Assembly: GCF_000282055.1 (NCBI RefSeq)
Contig: NZ_AKJZ01000016.1
Coordinates: 62,001 to 126,000, forward strand
Source: Flavobacterium sp. CF136
Lineage (GTDB): Bacteria > Bacteroidota > Bacteroidia > Flavobacteriales > Flavobacteriaceae
DNA length: 64,000 nucleotides
Direction: 5' to 3'
In this document: piece after piece, positions 57,438 through 63,738 of the stretch
Numbering within the stretch: position 1 is the stretch's first letter
How the letters are laid out: every line of letters starts with the position of its first letter
The notes under the pieces: generated by a model
What the model saw: only the letters and a program-made list of their open reading frames with translations
Told to the model about the DNA's origin: nothing
Databases searched by the model: none
Translations under genes and position numbers: made by a program

Positions 57438-58199
57438 ATGAAGAAAATTATTTTATTAGCTTTTTTACAACTGACTTTTTTTTCTGCTGTAGCACAAAAC
57501 TCAATTGTAAAAGACAGCACTGTAATGGATTCTGTAAAAAATACTAAGTTCAGCTACAAGCAGCTTATTATTCCTACTGTTCTTATTGGCTATGGATTTT
57601 GGGGAATCGAGAGTGGACAGATAAAAAGTTTCAATTCTCAAATACGTGATGAAATTACCGAAAACATTGATAATAAGGTTTCAATCGATGATTTCTCCAG
57701 ATATGTTCCTGCTGTTTCAGTATATGCCCTTAATGCTTTTGGTGTAAAAGGAAAAAATAATATGAGGGATCGTTCTGTAATTCTTGCAACTTCAACAATT
57801 ATTACTGTTGTGACCGTTTTTGGATTAAAATCAATTACCAATGTTGAAAGACCTGACGGAACTTCGAACGATTCTTTTCCTTCAGGTCATACTGCTATCG
57901 CTTTTGCCGGTGCAGAATTCATGTATCAGGAATATAAAGATAAATCGATCTGGTACGGTGTTGCCGGTTATGCTATTGCTGCGGGAACCGGAATTTTCCG
58001 TATGTACAATAACAGGCATTGGCTCACAGATGTAGCTCTGGGCGCAGGAATTGGTATACTCGCTACAAAAACAGCTTATTGGATGAATCCATATATAACC
58101 AGAAAATTATTTGGTGAGAAACAGACCAAATCAACATCTTTTATTGCACCTTCTTATAATGGCAGGCAGTTTCTGATTTGTTATTCAAAAACATTTTAA
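57438..58199 (+). CDS. PAP2-family phosphatase
   Basis: A 253-residue exported or membrane-associated acid phosphatase-like protein. It has a signal peptide (MKKIILLAFLQLTFFSAVAQ) and the three-part catalytic signature: KSITNVERP, SFPSGHTAIAF (PSGH) and RMYNNRHWLTDVALG (R-x5-H-x3-D). Hydrophobic segments surround the motifs. Possible substrates are undecaprenyl pyrophosphate, phosphatidate or LPS phosphates. It precedes the polyketide cluster by 125 bp on the same strand, but membership in that pathway is uncertain. Confidence 0.9.
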   Translation: MKKIILLAFLQLTFFSAVAQNSIVKDSTVMDSVKNTKFSYKQLIIPTVLIGYGFWGIESGQIKSFNSQIRDEITENIDNKVSIDDFSRYVPAVSVYALNAFGVKGKNNMRDRSVILATSTIITVVTVFGLKSITNVERPDGTSNDSFPSGHTAIAFAGAEFMYQEYKDKSIWYGVAGYAIAAGTGIFRMYNNRHWLTDVALGAGIGILATKTAYWMNPYITRKLFGEKQTKSTSFIAPSYNGRQFLICYSKTF

Positions 58200-58324: not shown

Positions 58325-59461
58325 ATGAAAACAAATTCGGATGTAATAATTATTGGCGGTGGCCTTGCAGGTTTGACAGGAGCAATACATCTGTCAAAAA
58401 AAGGACTGAATGTAATCTTAATCGAAAAATCCGAGTACCCGCGTCACAAAGTTTGTGGCGAATATATTTCCAATGAAATTCTGCCCTATCTCCTTTGGCT
58501 TGATATAGATGTTTTACAATTTAACCCGGAGAAGATTTCTACTTTTGAATTTACGACACAAAACGGCAAAATTGCCAGAACAAAACTTCCTTTGGGCGGA
58601 TTTGGTATCAGCAGATATATGCTGGATCATATTTTATATCAAAAAGCATTATCAAATGGCTGTATCATTCTAAAAGAAACCGTCACTGATATTTCTTTTG
58701 ATAATGATGAATTTTCAGTTACCATTCCCAATCAAATTCTATCGGCAAAATTAGTATTGGGAGCTTTCGGCAAACGTTCTAATATCGATCAGTTTCTGTC
58801 ACGGGATTTTATCACAAAAAAATCACCATGGCTGGCGGTCAAAGCACATTATTCCGGTAAAATTCCGAATGATATTGTAGCGCTTCATAATTTTAATGGT
58901 GGGTATTGTGGTGTTTCAAAAGTTGAAAATAACATTATAAACATCTGTTATCTGGCAGATTATGCTACTTTCAAAAAATATAAAAACATAGAAGAATATC
59001 AAAAAAATGTGCTGTATAAAAATAAGCATCTTAAATCTGTCTTTGAAAATAGTACCCTTTTATTTGACAAACCCCTTACGATTAGCCAGATCTCTTTTGA
59101 TAAAAAACAGCCTGTAGAAAACCATATATTAATGATCGGCGATTCGGCCGGACTCATTCATCCTATGTGCGGTAACGGTATGGCAATGGCAATACACAGC
59201 GCAAAAATTGCATCAGAAATGATACTGGATTATCATTCGGGTAAAATCGAATCACGTAACTTACTTGAAAAATCTTATGCAAAACAATGGAAAAAGAATT
59301 TTGGTAAGAGATTATTAATGGGAAGGCTTTTGGCGAAAATCTTAACCAACAAAACAATTACTAACGGATTTGTTGCAATCGTAGCAAGGTTACCTTTGGT
59401 ATTGTCTCAAATAATAAAACAAACACACGGAAAACCCATAGGAGTCAATAAATGTCAATAA
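58325..59461 (+). CDS. FAD-dependent oxidoreductase of the geranylgeranyl reductase / group A monooxygenase type (polyketide cluster)
   Basis: A 378-residue flavoprotein. VIIIGGGLAGLTGAIHLSKKG binds the ADP part of FAD, YPRHKVCGEYIS is a conserved Cys-containing loop of the geranylgeranyl reductase-like group, and ILMIGDSAGLIHPMCGNGMAMA binds the FAD ribityl chain. Family members hydroxylate aromatic rings or reduce isoprenoid double bonds. Next to a type III PKS and a methyltransferase it most likely oxidises the polyketide ring; that is inference. Its last 10 bases overlap the methyltransferase gene. Confidence 0.87.
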   Translation: MKTNSDVIIIGGGLAGLTGAIHLSKKGLNVILIEKSEYPRHKVCGEYISNEILPYLLWLDIDVLQFNPEKISTFEFTTQNGKIARTKLPLGGFGISRYMLDHILYQKALSNGCIILKETVTDISFDNDEFSVTIPNQILSAKLVLGAFGKRSNIDQFLSRDFITKKSPWLAVKAHYSGKIPNDIVALHNFNGGYCGVSKVENNIINICYLADYATFKKYKNIEEYQKNVLYKNKHLKSVFENSTLLFDKPLTISQISFDKKQPVENHILMIGDSAGLIHPMCGNGMAMAIHSAKIASEMILDYHSGKIESRNLLEKSYAKQWKKNFGKRLLMGRLLAKILTNKTITNGFVAIVARLPLVLSQIIKQTHGKPIGVNKCQ

Positions 59462-60165
59462 ATACGAAATACAGGACACAGGAAACGGAAATAATGGATG
59501 ATTTTTCTCTTCATGGAAGGGAATTACGCACCACACTAGATGAAATTGCCCGTATAAACCAATTACTTGGAGGCAATAAAGTGACTTTAAATGGAATTAA
59601 AAGAATAGTAAAGAAAGTCAATACTTCCAAACCTATAGTAATTGCTGATATAGGATGTGGCAATGGTGATATGCTGCGTATGCTGGCCAATTACGGGTTA
59701 AAAAACAATCTTAATTTTAAACTAATCGGGATAGATGCAAATGTCTTTACTATAAATTATGCCAAAACATTATCAAATGAATATTCAAATATGGAGTATT
59801 TGTGTTTAGATATTTTTAGTGAAGATTTTTCTGCTCTCCAATATGATATTGTTTTATGCACCCTTACCCTGCACCATTTTACTACTGAACAATTATTAAA
59901 TATAATTACTATCTTTAATAACAATGCAAGCATGGGTATTGTTATCAATGATTTACAGCGCAGTAAATTGGCTTACAAGCTTTTTAAAATAATTAGTATG
60001 CTATTCAGCCTGAGCAAAATGTCCCGCGAGGATGGCCTGATATCTATTTTAAGAGGATTTAAGAAAAAGGAACTGGAGGAATTTTCCAAAAAACTGAATT
60101 TAAAAAACTATACCATAAATTGGAAATGGGCTTTCCGTTACCAATGGATAATTATAAAAATATGA
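59452..60165 (+). CDS. Class I SAM-dependent methyltransferase (polyketide cluster)
   Basis: A 237-residue protein with SAM motif I IADIGCGNGDMLRMLA (residues about 63-78), acidic motif II LIGIDAN, and a Rossmann core ending near LCTLTLHHF. The C-terminal section (SKMSREDGLISILRGFKKKELEEF) resembles the lid of small-molecule C- or O-methyltransferases seen beside bacterial type III PKSs. It overlaps its upstream gene by 10 bp and the PKS gene by 4 bp (ATGA), so all three are translated together. ATG 59493 is an alternative start. Confidence 0.87.
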   Translation: MSINTKYRTQETEIMDDFSLHGRELRTTLDEIARINQLLGGNKVTLNGIKRIVKKVNTSKPIVIADIGCGNGDMLRMLANYGLKNNLNFKLIGIDANVFTINYAKTLSNEYSNMEYLCLDIFSEDFSALQYDIVLCTLTLHHFTTEQLLNIITIFNNNASMGIVINDLQRSKLAYKLFKIISMLFSLSKMSREDGLISILRGFKKKELEEFSKKLNLKNYTINWKWAFRYQWIIIKI

Positions 60166-61214
60166 GTGTCAAGATAATAACTGTAGCCAAACAACTACCA
60201 CAATATTCGCGTACAACAGAAGAAATACTTCCGCTTTTGGATGGCTGGCTGAATGGTCAGGATGAACGTTTTATAAAAAAAGTAAAAAAAATATTTGAAG
60301 GTGCTGCTGTAAACAAACGGTATTCGATCATGAAACCGCTTGAGGTTTTTACAGCAACATCATTTGAAGAAAAAAATGATATTTACAGCCGTGAAATGAT
60401 TGTTTTAGGCGAAAAAGTATTGGAAAAAGCCCTAAAAAAAGCAAACTGGGCCCCGGAAAGCATCGATTATATTATTACCGTAAGCTGCACGGGCATTATG
60501 ATTCCTTCTTTAGATGCCTATCTTATCAATAAAATGAAACTGAGACAGGATATCGTGCGTTTACCTGTTACAGAAATGGGTTGTGCAGCAGGGATCTCAG
60601 GTATTATATATGCTAAAAACTTTCTTAAAGCCAATCCCGGAAAACGTGCTGCAGTCATCGCGGTAGAATCACCTACGGCAACATTTCAGCTTGATGATTT
60701 TTCAATGCCCAATATTGTCAGTGCTGCTATTTTTGGAGATGGTGCCGCCTGCTGTCTTTTATCATCCTGTGAAGAAGATAATGGACCTGAAATACTTGAC
60801 GAACAAATGTATCATTTTTACGATGCTGAACATATGATGGGCTTTAAGCTTACCAACAGCGGTTTGCAAATGGTATTGGATGTAGAAGTTCCGGACACAA
60901 TTGCCTCCAATTTTGGGGCTATCATTCATCCATTTTTACAAAAAAATAATTTAGAAATTAAGGATATTGATCATATGATATTTCATCCCGGGGGCAAAAA
61001 AATAATTACAACTGTTGAATCTCTTTTTGCTGGCCTGGGTAAAAATATTGATGATACAAAAGAAGTACTAAAACAATATGGCAATATGTCCAGTGCTACG
61101 GTATTATATGTTTTAGAAAGAATAATGAATAGCAATCCAAAAGCTGGAGAGAAAGGATTGATGCTTAGTTTTGGCCCCGGATTTTCGGCCCAACGAGTTT
61201 TATTACAATGGTAA
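60162..61214 (+). CDS. Type III polyketide synthase (chalcone/stilbene synthase-like)
   Basis: Condensing enzyme that extends an acyl starter with malonyl-CoA and cyclises the product. From ATG 60162 it has 350 residues. The catalytic triad is visible: Cys141 in TEMGCAAGISG, His275 in MIFHPGGKK, Asn308 in QYGNMSSATV. The thiolase fold ends in the typical LSFGPGFSAQRVLLQW. Start ATG 60162 overlaps the methyltransferase stop; an in-frame TTG at 60120 adds 14 residues. With dedicated ACP, ketosynthase and dehydratase downstream, the starter is likely an ACP-bound acyl chain. The product (alkylresorcinol or alkylpyrone type) cannot be read from sequence. Confidence 0.93.
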   Translation: MSVKIITVAKQLPQYSRTTEEILPLLDGWLNGQDERFIKKVKKIFEGAAVNKRYSIMKPLEVFTATSFEEKNDIYSREMIVLGEKVLEKALKKANWAPESIDYIITVSCTGIMIPSLDAYLINKMKLRQDIVRLPVTEMGCAAGISGIIYAKNFLKANPGKRAAVIAVESPTATFQLDDFSMPNIVSAAIFGDGAACCLLSSCEEDNGPEILDEQMYHFYDAEHMMGFKLTNSGLQMVLDVEVPDTIASNFGAIIHPFLQKNNLEIKDIDHMIFHPGGKKIITTVESLFAGLGKNIDDTKEVLKQYGNMSSATVLYVLERIMNSNPKAGEKGLMLSFGPGFSAQRVLLQW

Positions 61215-61236
61215 TTATTACATAAAAAAACAAACT

Positions 61237-61674
61237 ATGAACCCAAATGATATTATAGCAAAATTACCTTACAGCAAGCCCTTTTTATTTGTGGATGAGT
61301 TGCTTCATGCTGATGAAAACAGTGTTACCGGAACCTATACTTTTAAGGAAGATCTTGACTTTTACAAAGGCCATTTTAAAGATAATCCTGTAACTCCGGG
61401 TGTAATTTTAACCGAAACCATGGCTCAGATAGGTATGGTTTGCCTGGGAATTTATTTATTGGGTGATGCCTTTAAGAAAGATACCGTTATTGCTTTTACA
61501 TCTGCAGATATGCAGTTTTTAAAACCGGTATATCCGAATGAAAAAGTCACTGTAATTTCCAAAAAAACATTTTTCAGGTTTGGCAAACTAAAGTGTGATG
61601 TGGTCATGAAAAATGAAGCCGGACAGGAAGTTTGTAAAGGTATTTTAGCCGGAATGATAACTGCAAAATTATGA
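61237..61674 (+). CDS. FabZ-like 3-hydroxyacyl-ACP dehydratase (hot-dog fold)
   Basis: A 145-residue hot-dog protein. PYSKPFLFVDEL at the N-terminus, then GHFKDNPVTPGVILTETMAQ, gives His46 and Glu60 as the catalytic pair, matching FabZ. QFLKPVYPNEKVTV follows. It would remove water from the 3-hydroxyacyl-ACP intermediate during starter synthesis. Start ATG 61237 chosen because the longer frame from 61171 lies inside the PKS gene. It overlaps the ketosynthase gene by 4 bp. Confidence 0.9.
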   Translation: MNPNDIIAKLPYSKPFLFVDELLHADENSVTGTYTFKEDLDFYKGHFKDNPVTPGVILTETMAQIGMVCLGIYLLGDAFKKDTVIAFTSADMQFLKPVYPNEKVTVISKKTFFRFGKLKCDVVMKNEAGQEVCKGILAGMITAKL

Positions 61675-62945
61675 GTAAGCGGGTTGTAATAACAGGTCTT
61701 GGCGTAGCAGCTCCAAACGGAGTTGGAATTCCTGCGTTTACACATGCCATAAAAAACGGATTATCAGGTATAAAGCATGATGCTCAATTACAAGAGCTGC
61801 AGTTTTCCTGCCAGATAGCGGGTAAACCGGAGATTACGGAGGAACTTAAATTGCAATGTTTTACGGACCTTGAACTACGCGGGTTTAACAGTACTGGTAT
61901 TTTATATGGTGTTATTGCAGGTATGGAAGCCTGGAAAAATGCCGGATTACCAATAGAAACCAACAATGAACCGAATTGGGACAGCGGTACTATTTTTGGA
62001 TCAGGTACATCAGGCATCGATAAATTTCGTGAAAGCATTTATAAAATAGATGAATTTCAAACACGTAAACTTGGAAGTACCGTCGTGGCACAAACCATGA
62101 ACAGTGGCATAAGTGCTTATCTTGGCGGAAAACTGGGACTTGGGAATCAGGTAACTACAAATTCATCGGCATGTTCAACAGGTACCGAAGCTATTATAAT
62201 GGCTTATGACCGAATAATATCCGGACAGGCAAAACGTATATTAGCCGGAAGTACAGGTGATAGCGGTCCATATATTTGGGGTGGATTTGACGCCTTGCGT
62301 GTATGCAGTTCCAAATACAACGAAAATCCTGAACTTGGCTCCCGCCCTATGAGTGCCACAGCAGCAGGATTTGTACCCGGTAGTGGCGCCGGAGCTTTGG
62401 TTATTGAAGATCTTGATAGTGCTTTGGAACGCGGTGCAACAATTTATGCCGAAATTTTGGGTGGAAATGTAAACTCCGGCGGGCAGCGCGGAAACGGAAG
62501 CATGACTGCACCAAATAGTGCTGCGGTACAACGATGTATTATTGATGCGCTTAATAGTTCCGGTATTTTGCCAGCAGATGTTGATGCTATTAACGGTCAT
62601 CTTACTGCTACTACAAAAGATAGCCTGGAAATCGAAAACTGGATAGAAGCATTAAACCGAAAAGGAAATAACTTTCCGTATATAAATTCCTTAAAAAGTA
62701 TGACAGGGCATTGTCTTGGTGCGGCCGGAAGTATAGAAAGCGTAGCTGCAGTTTTGCAGCTTCATGAAGGTTTTTTGTTTGGGAATACAAATTGCGAAGA
62801 TCTTCATCCGGAAATTACGGCTCTTATTGATTCTTCAAAAGTGCCTTTTAAAACGATTAACACTGATTTAAATATAATTGCTAAAGCCAGCTTTGGTTTT
62901 GGAGATGTAAATGCCTGTGTACTATTTAAAAAATATAAAAATTAA
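61671..62945 (+). CDS. Beta-ketoacyl-ACP synthase (FabF-like, polyketide cluster)
   Basis: A 424-residue ketosynthase of the FabF/KAS II group. The active Cys168 lies in TNSSACSTGTEAI, His310 in INGHLTATTKDS (where most FabF proteins have HGTST), and Lys342/His347 in LKSMTGHCLGAAGS. The changed HLTAT motif keeps the catalytic His and recurs, to my memory, in KS enzymes of Bacteroidota aryl/alkyl polyketide clusters. Together with the ACP and dehydratase it should build a dedicated acyl starter. Start overlaps the dehydratase stop by 4 bp (ATGA). Confidence 0.92.
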   Translation: MSKRVVITGLGVAAPNGVGIPAFTHAIKNGLSGIKHDAQLQELQFSCQIAGKPEITEELKLQCFTDLELRGFNSTGILYGVIAGMEAWKNAGLPIETNNEPNWDSGTIFGSGTSGIDKFRESIYKIDEFQTRKLGSTVVAQTMNSGISAYLGGKLGLGNQVTTNSSACSTGTEAIIMAYDRIISGQAKRILAGSTGDSGPYIWGGFDALRVCSSKYNENPELGSRPMSATAAGFVPGSGAGALVIEDLDSALERGATIYAEILGGNVNSGGQRGNGSMTAPNSAAVQRCIIDALNSSGILPADVDAINGHLTATTKDSLEIENWIEALNRKGNNFPYINSLKSMTGHCLGAAGSIESVAAVLQLHEGFLFGNTNCEDLHPEITALIDSSKVPFKTINTDLNIIAKASFGFGDVNACVLFKKYKN

Positions 62946-62947
62946 TT

Positions 62948-63202
62948 ATGAACAGAGAAGAACTAATTGCGAAACTAAAAGTCATCATAAAGCCTTATGC
63001 AACCAATACTGATGCTTATGACAATCTTACAGAGAATACTGATTTCATTAACGATCTTAGTATTAATTCGGCTAACCTTGTAGATATTGTACTCGATATT
63101 GAAGAAACTTTTGATGTTGTAATTGATAATACGGATATGGAGCGAATGCTCGATGTTAAAACTGCCGTTGAAATTATAGAAACTAAACTCGCTGCAAAAT
63201 GA
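62948..63202 (+). CDS. Acyl carrier protein (polyketide cluster)
   Basis: An 84-residue acidic four-helix carrier. The phosphopantetheine serine is probably Ser41 in NDLSINSANLVDIVLDIEE, where ordinary ACPs have DSL, so the recognition motif is altered to NSA. It follows the ketosynthase gene by 2 bp and overlaps the phosphopantetheinyl transferase gene by 4 bp, a dedicated carrier separate from housekeeping AcpP. Confidence 0.9.
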   Translation: MNREELIAKLKVIIKPYATNTDAYDNLTENTDFINDLSINSANLVDIVLDIEETFDVVIDNTDMERMLDVKTAVEIIETKLAAK

Positions 63203-63738
63203 TTGGTAATGACGTGATAGACCTAATACAATCACGTCATGAAAGTAATTGGCAGCGCAAAGGTTTTATAGAAAAGCTGTTTACTGCCGAAGAACAATTG
63301 CTTATAAAACATGATTCTGATCCTGAAATTATGGTTTGGCTGCTTTGGAGTATGAAAGAAGCTGCCTATAAAATTTATAACAGACAGACAAAATTACGGC
63401 AATACATTCCTAAAAAACTGATTTGCATCATATTATCAAACAACAATGATTACATTACAGGTCAGGTAACTTGCTGCGAAAATGTTTACCATACCAAAAC
63501 AACCATTTTAACTGATAGCATACATACAATAGCGGTTAGCTTTCTACACGATTTAAATAATGTAATTGAAATTGAAAACAGAAACATTTTTAAAGACGAA
63601 AATGCTATTCCATTTTTAAATAGTTTACAGAATACATTTCAGGATGTTTCAATTAGTCATCATGGCCGATTTGAAAAAGTAGTCACTATTATTAAAAAGA
63701 ATAGCAGGCAAAATCAACAAGATTCAGTTTTTAGATAA
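63199..63738 (+). CDS. 4'-phosphopantetheinyl transferase (holo-ACP synthase type)
   Basis: A 179-residue protein loading phosphopantetheine from CoA onto the cluster ACP. MIGNDVIDL gives the Mg-binding Asp (Asp5 and Asp8) of AcpS/Sfp enzymes, and WSMKEAAYKIYNRQ is the second signature with Glu54 and Lys58. It begins at ATG 63199, overlapping the ACP stop. Its presence beside a nonstandard ACP suggests partner specificity. Confidence 0.88.
   Translation: MIGNDVIDLIQSRHESNWQRKGFIEKLFTAEEQLLIKHDSDPEIMVWLLWSMKEAAYKIYNRQTKLRQYIPKKLICIILSNNNDYITGQVTCCENVYHTKTTILTDSIHTIAVSFLHDLNNVIEIENRNIFKDENAIPFLNSLQNTFQDVSISHHGRFEKVVTIIKKNSRQNQQDSVFR

Follow-up and report, generated by a model that had tools for sequence, protein, structure and literature searches.

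Why should a type III polyketide synthase (PKS) gene of Flavobacterium sp. CF136 be followed by genes for a type II set with its own acyl carrier protein (ACP)? The locus lies in a stretch of 64,000 nucleotides (the window) that covers forward-strand positions 62,001 to 126,000 of contig NZ_AKJZ01000016.1, from a 5.1-Mb assembly (GCF_000282055.1). Seven plus-strand open reading frames (ORFs) fill positions 58325 to 63738 of the window; they encode a flavin adenine dinucleotide (FAD)-dependent enzyme, a methyltransferase (MT), the type III PKS, a dehydratase (DH), a ketosynthase (KS), the ACP, and a phosphopantetheinyl transferase (PPTase). An original prediction, made from the letters and ORFs alone, had proposed that the type II proteins make an acyl-ACP that the type III PKS takes directly. 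An ORF check reproduced the seven ORFs, their coordinates, and all the overlaps and gaps that it had given, and Pfam upheld its family assignments, that of the ACP just over the cut-off. On balance, we favor the reading that the private type II set builds an acyl-ACP and passes it directly to the type III PKS, leading to a phenolic or pyrone lipid. Each half of the cluster has precedents; the pairing by inheritance of a type III PKS with a type II elongation set that brings its own ACP did not appear among the matches listed from the open-license PMC literature.

Co-inheritance of the type II genes and the type III PKS

We counted orthologs in a family sample of 299 genomes from 236 genera, the window genome included. 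All 299 genomes match the type III PKS at an E value of 0.001, the weaker matches at 25 to 33% identity; orthologs were counted at a cut of 1e-110, chosen from the list of matches, in which the next match below stands at 5e-52. Orthologs so defined occur in 103 genomes (58 to 100% identity; the copy in genome G150 is in two pieces), and the cluster KS (E value of ≤1e-60; weakest match, 2.3e-138) occurs in 101. The co-conservation anticipated by the original prediction was borne out for the type III PKS and the KS: the KS is present in 101/103 genomes with the type III PKS and in 0/196 without it, a co-occurrence for which the statistics (Fisher test) ignore phylogeny. The two genes lie ≤6 kb apart on one contig in 97 of the 101 genomes. 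Among the other four, contig ends interrupt the cluster of G066, the halves fall on separate contigs in G276 and G144, and G190, on one contig of 3.16 Mb, carries FAD-MT-type III PKS plus a short-chain dehydrogenase/reductase (SDR) gene 356 kb from DH-KS-ACP, having retained both unlinked halves. Inheritance links the type II genes to the type III PKS, and the two are passed on together almost without exception.

Within the genus sample, both genes are found in 17/24 genomes and neither in 7/24; the closest named relatives by type III PKS identity are F. hydrophilum (95%), F. cheongpyeongense (93%), and F. johnsoniae CI04 (88%). A phylum sample (n = 395) gave the type III PKS (≥66% identity) in 33 genomes and the KS (E value of ≤1e-70) in 38, with 33 having both. 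The queries for the neighborhood screens were the window's own proteins together with a single SDR and a single MMPL protein, so that other shared genes may escape. Among 40 loci of the type III PKS clade, the FAD enzyme, MT, and type III PKS genes are present in 40/40 and DH-KS-ACP are together in 37/40, the exceptions being the split loci of G276 and G144 and that of G138. Named loci, which are the best 80 of at least 567 and so are skewed to near relatives, show FAD-MT-type III PKS-DH-KS in this order in 80/80, the ACP in 78/80, and the PPTase in 74/80; they take in F. johnsoniae CI04, Kaistella, Myroides, and Sphingobacterium, and one (L191) comes from a bin labeled Candidatus Nitrotoga that is probably misbinned. 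All seven genes also occur in genomes of other families (G375, G428, and G536), and the cluster occurs in a Sphingobacterium (L201), which suggests that it has been transferred between families as a whole unit. Twenty loci of less closely related Bacteroidota type III PKSs (≤37% identity) have no homologs of the DH, KS, ACP, or PPTase within the stretch read; four of these loci have FAD and MT genes, and one has an MT gene alone.

Cluster layout and predicted activities

Neighboring ORFs (Table 1) overlap by 10 bp (FAD enzyme and MT) or 4 bp (MT and type III PKS, DH and KS, and ACP and PPTase) or are separated by 22 bp (type III PKS and DH) or 2 bp (KS and ACP; 62946-62947). The best NCBIfam score of every one of the seven proteins falls below the curated cut-off of its model, and we therefore regard them as divergent members. 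A PAP2-superfamily phosphatase gene lies just upstream (window positions 57438-58199), with no match in 20 loci checked. In two relatives, the gene directly after the PPTase encodes an MMPL/HAE3-type resistance-nodulation-division (RND) transporter (L047:11096-13333; L049, ~12013), a possible candidate for a lipid exporter.

Table 1. Features of the cluster, in window coordinates.
Feature	Position	Strand	Basis
FAD-dependent monooxygenase/reductase-superfamily enzyme	58325..59461	+	Pfam FAD_binding_3; predicted fold
S-adenosylmethionine-dependent MT, class I	59452..60165	+	Pfam Methyltransf_25/31
Type III PKS, Cys141-His275-Asn308	60162..61214	+	PF00195/PF02797
Junction, site of an SDR gene (~263 codons) in most relatives, empty here	61215..61236	+	
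FabZ-like 3-hydroxyacyl-ACP DH	61237..61674	+	PF07977, 49.7 bits
FabF/FabB-like KS, distinct subfamily	61671..62945	+	PF00109/PF02801; GHLTA and GFGD signatures
ACP, Ser41 attachment site	62948..63202	+	PF00550
4'-Phosphopantetheinyl transferase (PPTase)	63199..63738	+	PF01648, 42 bits

The type III PKS scores 71.4 bits with PF00195 and 72.0 bits with PF02797 (cut-off, 27). Its chalcone synthase-type triad, which the original prediction had placed correctly at C141, H275, and N308, is kept in 41/41 aligned type III PKSs, counting the window and one gene broken into two frames (L055). The best NCBIfam model is DpgA (175 bits versus a cut-off of 425); a DpgA-type role was rejected, the score being under the cut-off and no DpgBCD-type gene being among the seven. 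The protein scored 27.5 bits with the NCBIfam DarB model, versus a cut-off of 550, and so does not belong to DarB. Its predicted model (mean predicted local distance difference test [pLDDT] score, 90.1) best matches the fold of PKS11 (Z, 46.0; root mean square deviation [rmsd], 1.8; 343 residues aligned), an alkylpyrone enzyme that uses fatty starters. The second-best entry family is CylI (Z, 44.4; rmsd, 1.8; 344 residues aligned), a resorcinol enzyme with a fatty starter (PMC8086630). ArsC is not among the matches listed (best 50 fold rows), which excludes nothing; the position of a ring-type residue is given as Trp281 in ArsB versus Gly284 in ArsC (PMC6274091). With one pyrone and one resorcinol enzyme as its two closest folds, the model does not distinguish ring types, and the predicted product class is no narrower than a phenol, quinone, or pyrone lipid.

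The FAD enzyme reaches 116 bits with the NCBIfam model GG-red-SF (cut-off, 158.8). Its predicted model (pLDDT, 84.7) has a fold like those of FAD halogenases, aromatic hydroxylases, and a GG-reductase-like protein, with Z scores of 35.5 to 31.0 among the 50 matches listed. Halogenases rank first, yet a halogenase role was rejected: WxWxIP, the motif of FAD halogenases, is absent. Ring hydroxylation is probably the likeliest role, although the fold does not decide. The MT (131 bits with NCBIfam PRK06202; cut-off, 243) probably carries out C- or O-methylation as a tailoring step.

As judged from the alignments, the catalytic residues of the type III PKS, KS, DH, and ACP are intact. The DH keeps His46 and Glu60 in 39/39 sequences. 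The KS keeps its catalytic Cys-His-His-Lys residues in 38/38 sequences and is marked by the signatures GHLTA and GFGDVN (38/38), compared with GFGG in 4/4 paralogs from its own genome; it is only 35% identical to the closest of these paralogs and scores 260.1 with the NCBIfam fabF equivalog, below the cut-off of 493.75. The ACP is a marginal match to PF00550 (21.1 bits; cut-off, 20.8), with the attachment Ser and an INS motif in 38/38 sequences. The PPTase motif KE was found in 28/28 sequences, and GND was found in 27/28, with GVD in 1/28. All of the type II proteins are single-domain proteins, and none is a type I fatty acid synthase (FAS) of the ars type (ArsA/ArsD-like).

An eighth gene in relatives and the cassette in other neighborhoods

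In most relatives, an SDR gene of ~263 residues lies between the type III PKS and the DH. The composition of seven genes first described is correct for the window, as is the statement that no ketoreductase or thioesterase is among them, but neither took account of this eighth gene, which has orthologs in 93/103 family genomes with the type III PKS and is missing in 10/103. The best match in the window genome is 30% identical, and no ortholog was found there. The SDR is absent from the cluster in 17/17 type III PKS-positive genus genomes sampled (the window, L036, and L089 to L103), whereas it is in place in five of the 80 named loci, four of Kaistella and that of Flavobacterium sp. GT3R68. Orthologs also occur in two genomes without the type III PKS (G031 and G257); in G257, a type III PKS fragment (residues 271 to 350) stands just ahead of the SDR, and the locus is a decayed cluster. 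At L221:6623-7648, a decayed cluster consists of a type III PKS fragment and then an SDR, and the KS was not found in that genome. This distribution suggests that the SDR is probably ancestral and was later lost; since most relatives have it, the window carries a reduced version of the set. At L046:6307-7533 (minus strand), a gene for a DUF218 and hemopexin-repeat protein lies between the SDR and the DH.

The active site of the SDR is Y-x6-K (YX6K), with Val at K-4, in 19/19 cassette SDRs, a count that omits L104, an SDR outside the cassette that entered the alignment; the 28% identity filter dropped no match listed for the 40 clade loci. YX6K in place of YxxxK is the pattern of enoyl-ACP reductases (FabI/FabL). 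Together with the absence of Tyr at K-4, it favors an enoyl-reductase type over a ketoreductase, which the Pfam SDR class had made a candidate. For the SDR of L037, the best NCBIfam model is FabL, at 140.4 bits versus a cut-off of 328. The sequence thus looks like that of an enoyl-reductase type that is not filed as FabL. Against this call weigh the sequence matches in PDB, which are led by a gluconate 5-dehydrogenase, with FabL (3oic) in second place and some ketoreductases in the rest of the list.

The type II genes were also observed beside other partners. In the phylum sample, five extra genomes with the KS (50 to 55% identity) have DH-KS-ACP in all and the SDR in three. In two of them, SDR-DH-KS-ACP-PPTase lies divergent to genes for DarB, DarH, and an ABC transporter (L228:8276-18066 and L229:8155-17817). 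Profile scores for DarB and DarH come from L228 only (634.8 bits versus a cut-off of 550 and 453.7 versus 300, respectively); those of L229 were assigned by similarity as orthologs of the L228 proteins (74.5% and 70% identity). These two loci also share a 300-amino-acid (aa) gene with no Pfam or NCBIfam match and a 145-aa gene. The other three loci (L230:8597-13746, L231:7325-11689, and L232:7606-11856) have GNAT-like and family-2 glycosyltransferase genes beside DH-KS-ACP, with the SDR in L230 only, and possibly belong to an N-acyl or glycolipid pathway. Since the same DH-KS-ACP set stands beside such different genes, it may act as a portable unit for acyl-ACP. We advance only tentatively the further idea that SDR-DH-KS-ACP(-PPTase) is a previously undescribed portable "acyl-ACP cartridge" of Bacteroidota. 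Its hallmark would be a KS bearing the GHLT and GFGD-type signatures, and it would be plugged before three unrelated acyl users, namely, DarB, GNAT/glycosyltransferase pairs, and, in Flavobacteriaceae, the type III PKS. Loss of the SDR in most Flavobacterium strains would then remove an enoyl reductase and replace the saturated starter of the type III PKS with an unsaturated or polyenyl one. If true, the clusters would form a natural series in which changes of product could be predicted.

The proposed pathway, its alternatives, and known systems

We infer a pathway of two modules, including the hand-over of acyl-ACP, the use of FabD and FabG, the length and saturation of the chain, the number of extensions, the ring type, and the tailoring. 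The first module, consisting of the DH, KS, ACP, and PPTase (and, in most relatives, the enoyl-reductase-type SDR), would lengthen or finish a fatty chain on its own ACP, with malonyl transfer and ketoreduction presumably borrowed from housekeeping fatty acid synthesis (FabD and FabG). The second, the type III PKS, would take the acyl group from the ACP straight onto Cys141, add about three malonyl units, and close an alkylresorcinol or alkylpyrone ring, which the MT and the FAD enzyme would then methylate and oxidize. The SDR is missing from most Flavobacterium; there, a housekeeping enoyl reductase might substitute, or the chain might remain unsaturated.

Several observations weigh against this pathway. 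Co-inheritance indicates a common pathway, not the direction of transfer within it. Ketoreductase, malonyltransferase, and thioesterase genes are all absent from the seven window genes. Two family genomes have the type III PKS without the KS (G138 and G293, the contig of the latter being just 4.6 kb), and 5/395 phylum genomes have the KS without the type III PKS clade. The PPTase was found in just 27/40 clade loci (three of the 13 others are split or edge loci) and was not found in four Kaistella among the named loci; the seven genes are therefore not always together. Dialkylresorcinols derive from fatty acid precursors (a title in the reference list of PMC9606717). However, flexirubin clusters include ACP, KS, and DH genes that serve the polyene part (PMC9606717), and adjacency to DarB therefore need not mean that the cassette supplies a chain to DarB; the DarB neighborhood is evidence that the cassette is reused rather than evidence of what it does.

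Of the alternatives, the one that survives best, though we consider it unlikely, is that the type III PKS starts from an ordinary acyl coenzyme A (acyl-CoA) while the KS, DH, and ACP make a separate fatty component, e.g., an ester on the phenol; the modules would then have a product in common but no hand-over of acyl-ACP. Most type III PKSs do take CoA starters (PMC6274091), and in two distant genomes the cassette neighbors the genes for DarB and for DarH, whose family name is that of an acyltransferase, but no acyltransferase or ligase is among the seven genes of the window. It is quite improbable that the type III PKS acts first, with its product, an aromatic or pyrone acid, being loaded on the ACP for extension by the KS, DH, and SDR in the manner of an aryl polyene. 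DpgA, the best NCBIfam model, makes an aromatic acyl-CoA, but the 175 bits are far below 425, genes of the DpgB/C/D, CoA ligase, or loading type are absent among the seven, the nearest folds are those of PKS11 and CylI, both fatty-starter enzymes, and five genomes have the cassette with no type III PKS nearby. That the type II genes are chance neighbors, duplicated fatty acid genes outside the type III PKS pathway, as their likeness to FabF, FabZ, and ACP might suggest, is close to refuted by the presence of the type III PKS in 101/101 family genomes with the KS, unlinked cases included, and by the just 35% identity of the KS to its closest own-genome paralog.

The FAD and MT genes beside the type III PKS recall operons of the MT-oxidoreductase-type III PKS kind, such as srsABC of Streptomyces griseus. 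As in hidABC and the planctomycete operons (hierridins and alkylresorcinols), the type III PKS adjoins one MT and one FAD oxidoreductase (40/40 clade loci here), in the order FAD-MT-type III PKS rather than MT-oxidoreductase-type III PKS; compared by gene content, those operons are without the KS/DH/ACP set as described in PMC10896814. The trio had already been published for cyanobacteria and Planctomycetota (PMC10896814, PMC8086630), and 58/96 planctomycete type III PKS genes sit in such an operon (PMC10896814).

The hand-over of an acyl-ACP to the type III PKS, plausible here, is likewise not a novelty: acyl-ACP starters are documented for ArsB/ArsC (Azotobacter) and for germicidin synthase and SCO7671 (Streptomyces) (PMC6274091). 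The ars operon of Azotobacter vinelandii likewise has its own fatty-chain synthesis beside the type III PKS, with the starter moving from the FAS ACP to ArsB/ArsC (PMC6274091, PMC3098273). In contrast with the type I multidomain synthase of ars, the cluster described here has separate type II proteins, its own ACP and PPTase, and FAD and MT genes. In the cylindrocyclophane pathway (CylB-CylD-CylH-CylI), an ACP-bound, PKS-elongated chain also goes to a type III PKS to give an alkylresorcinol (PMC8086630), but there elongation is by a type I PKS and is accompanied by chlorination and dimerization, unlike the type II cassette here. The dialkylresorcinol/flexirubin dar genes share the cassette, which lies beside DarB/DarH in two Bacteroidota genomes, whereas the window cluster is without DarB. 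Among the matches listed from the open-license PMC literature, we encountered neither a type III PKS linked to a type II set of its own nor a description of a product of this cluster; koreenceine (PMC6498172) was set aside as the product of a Pseudomonas type II pathway that acts against Flavobacterium.

Type III PKS clusters make up 9% of the antiSMASH clusters in one Flavobacteriaceae survey (PMC7440613). If the favored pathway is true, its type II proteins, being separate, would allow the transfer from acyl-ACP to a type III PKS to be reconstituted easily in vitro, and the absence of the enoyl reductase would offer a natural test of the control of side-chain saturation. Moreover, a pathway retained by about a third of the family genomes sampled (103/299) would have a chemistry assigned to it.

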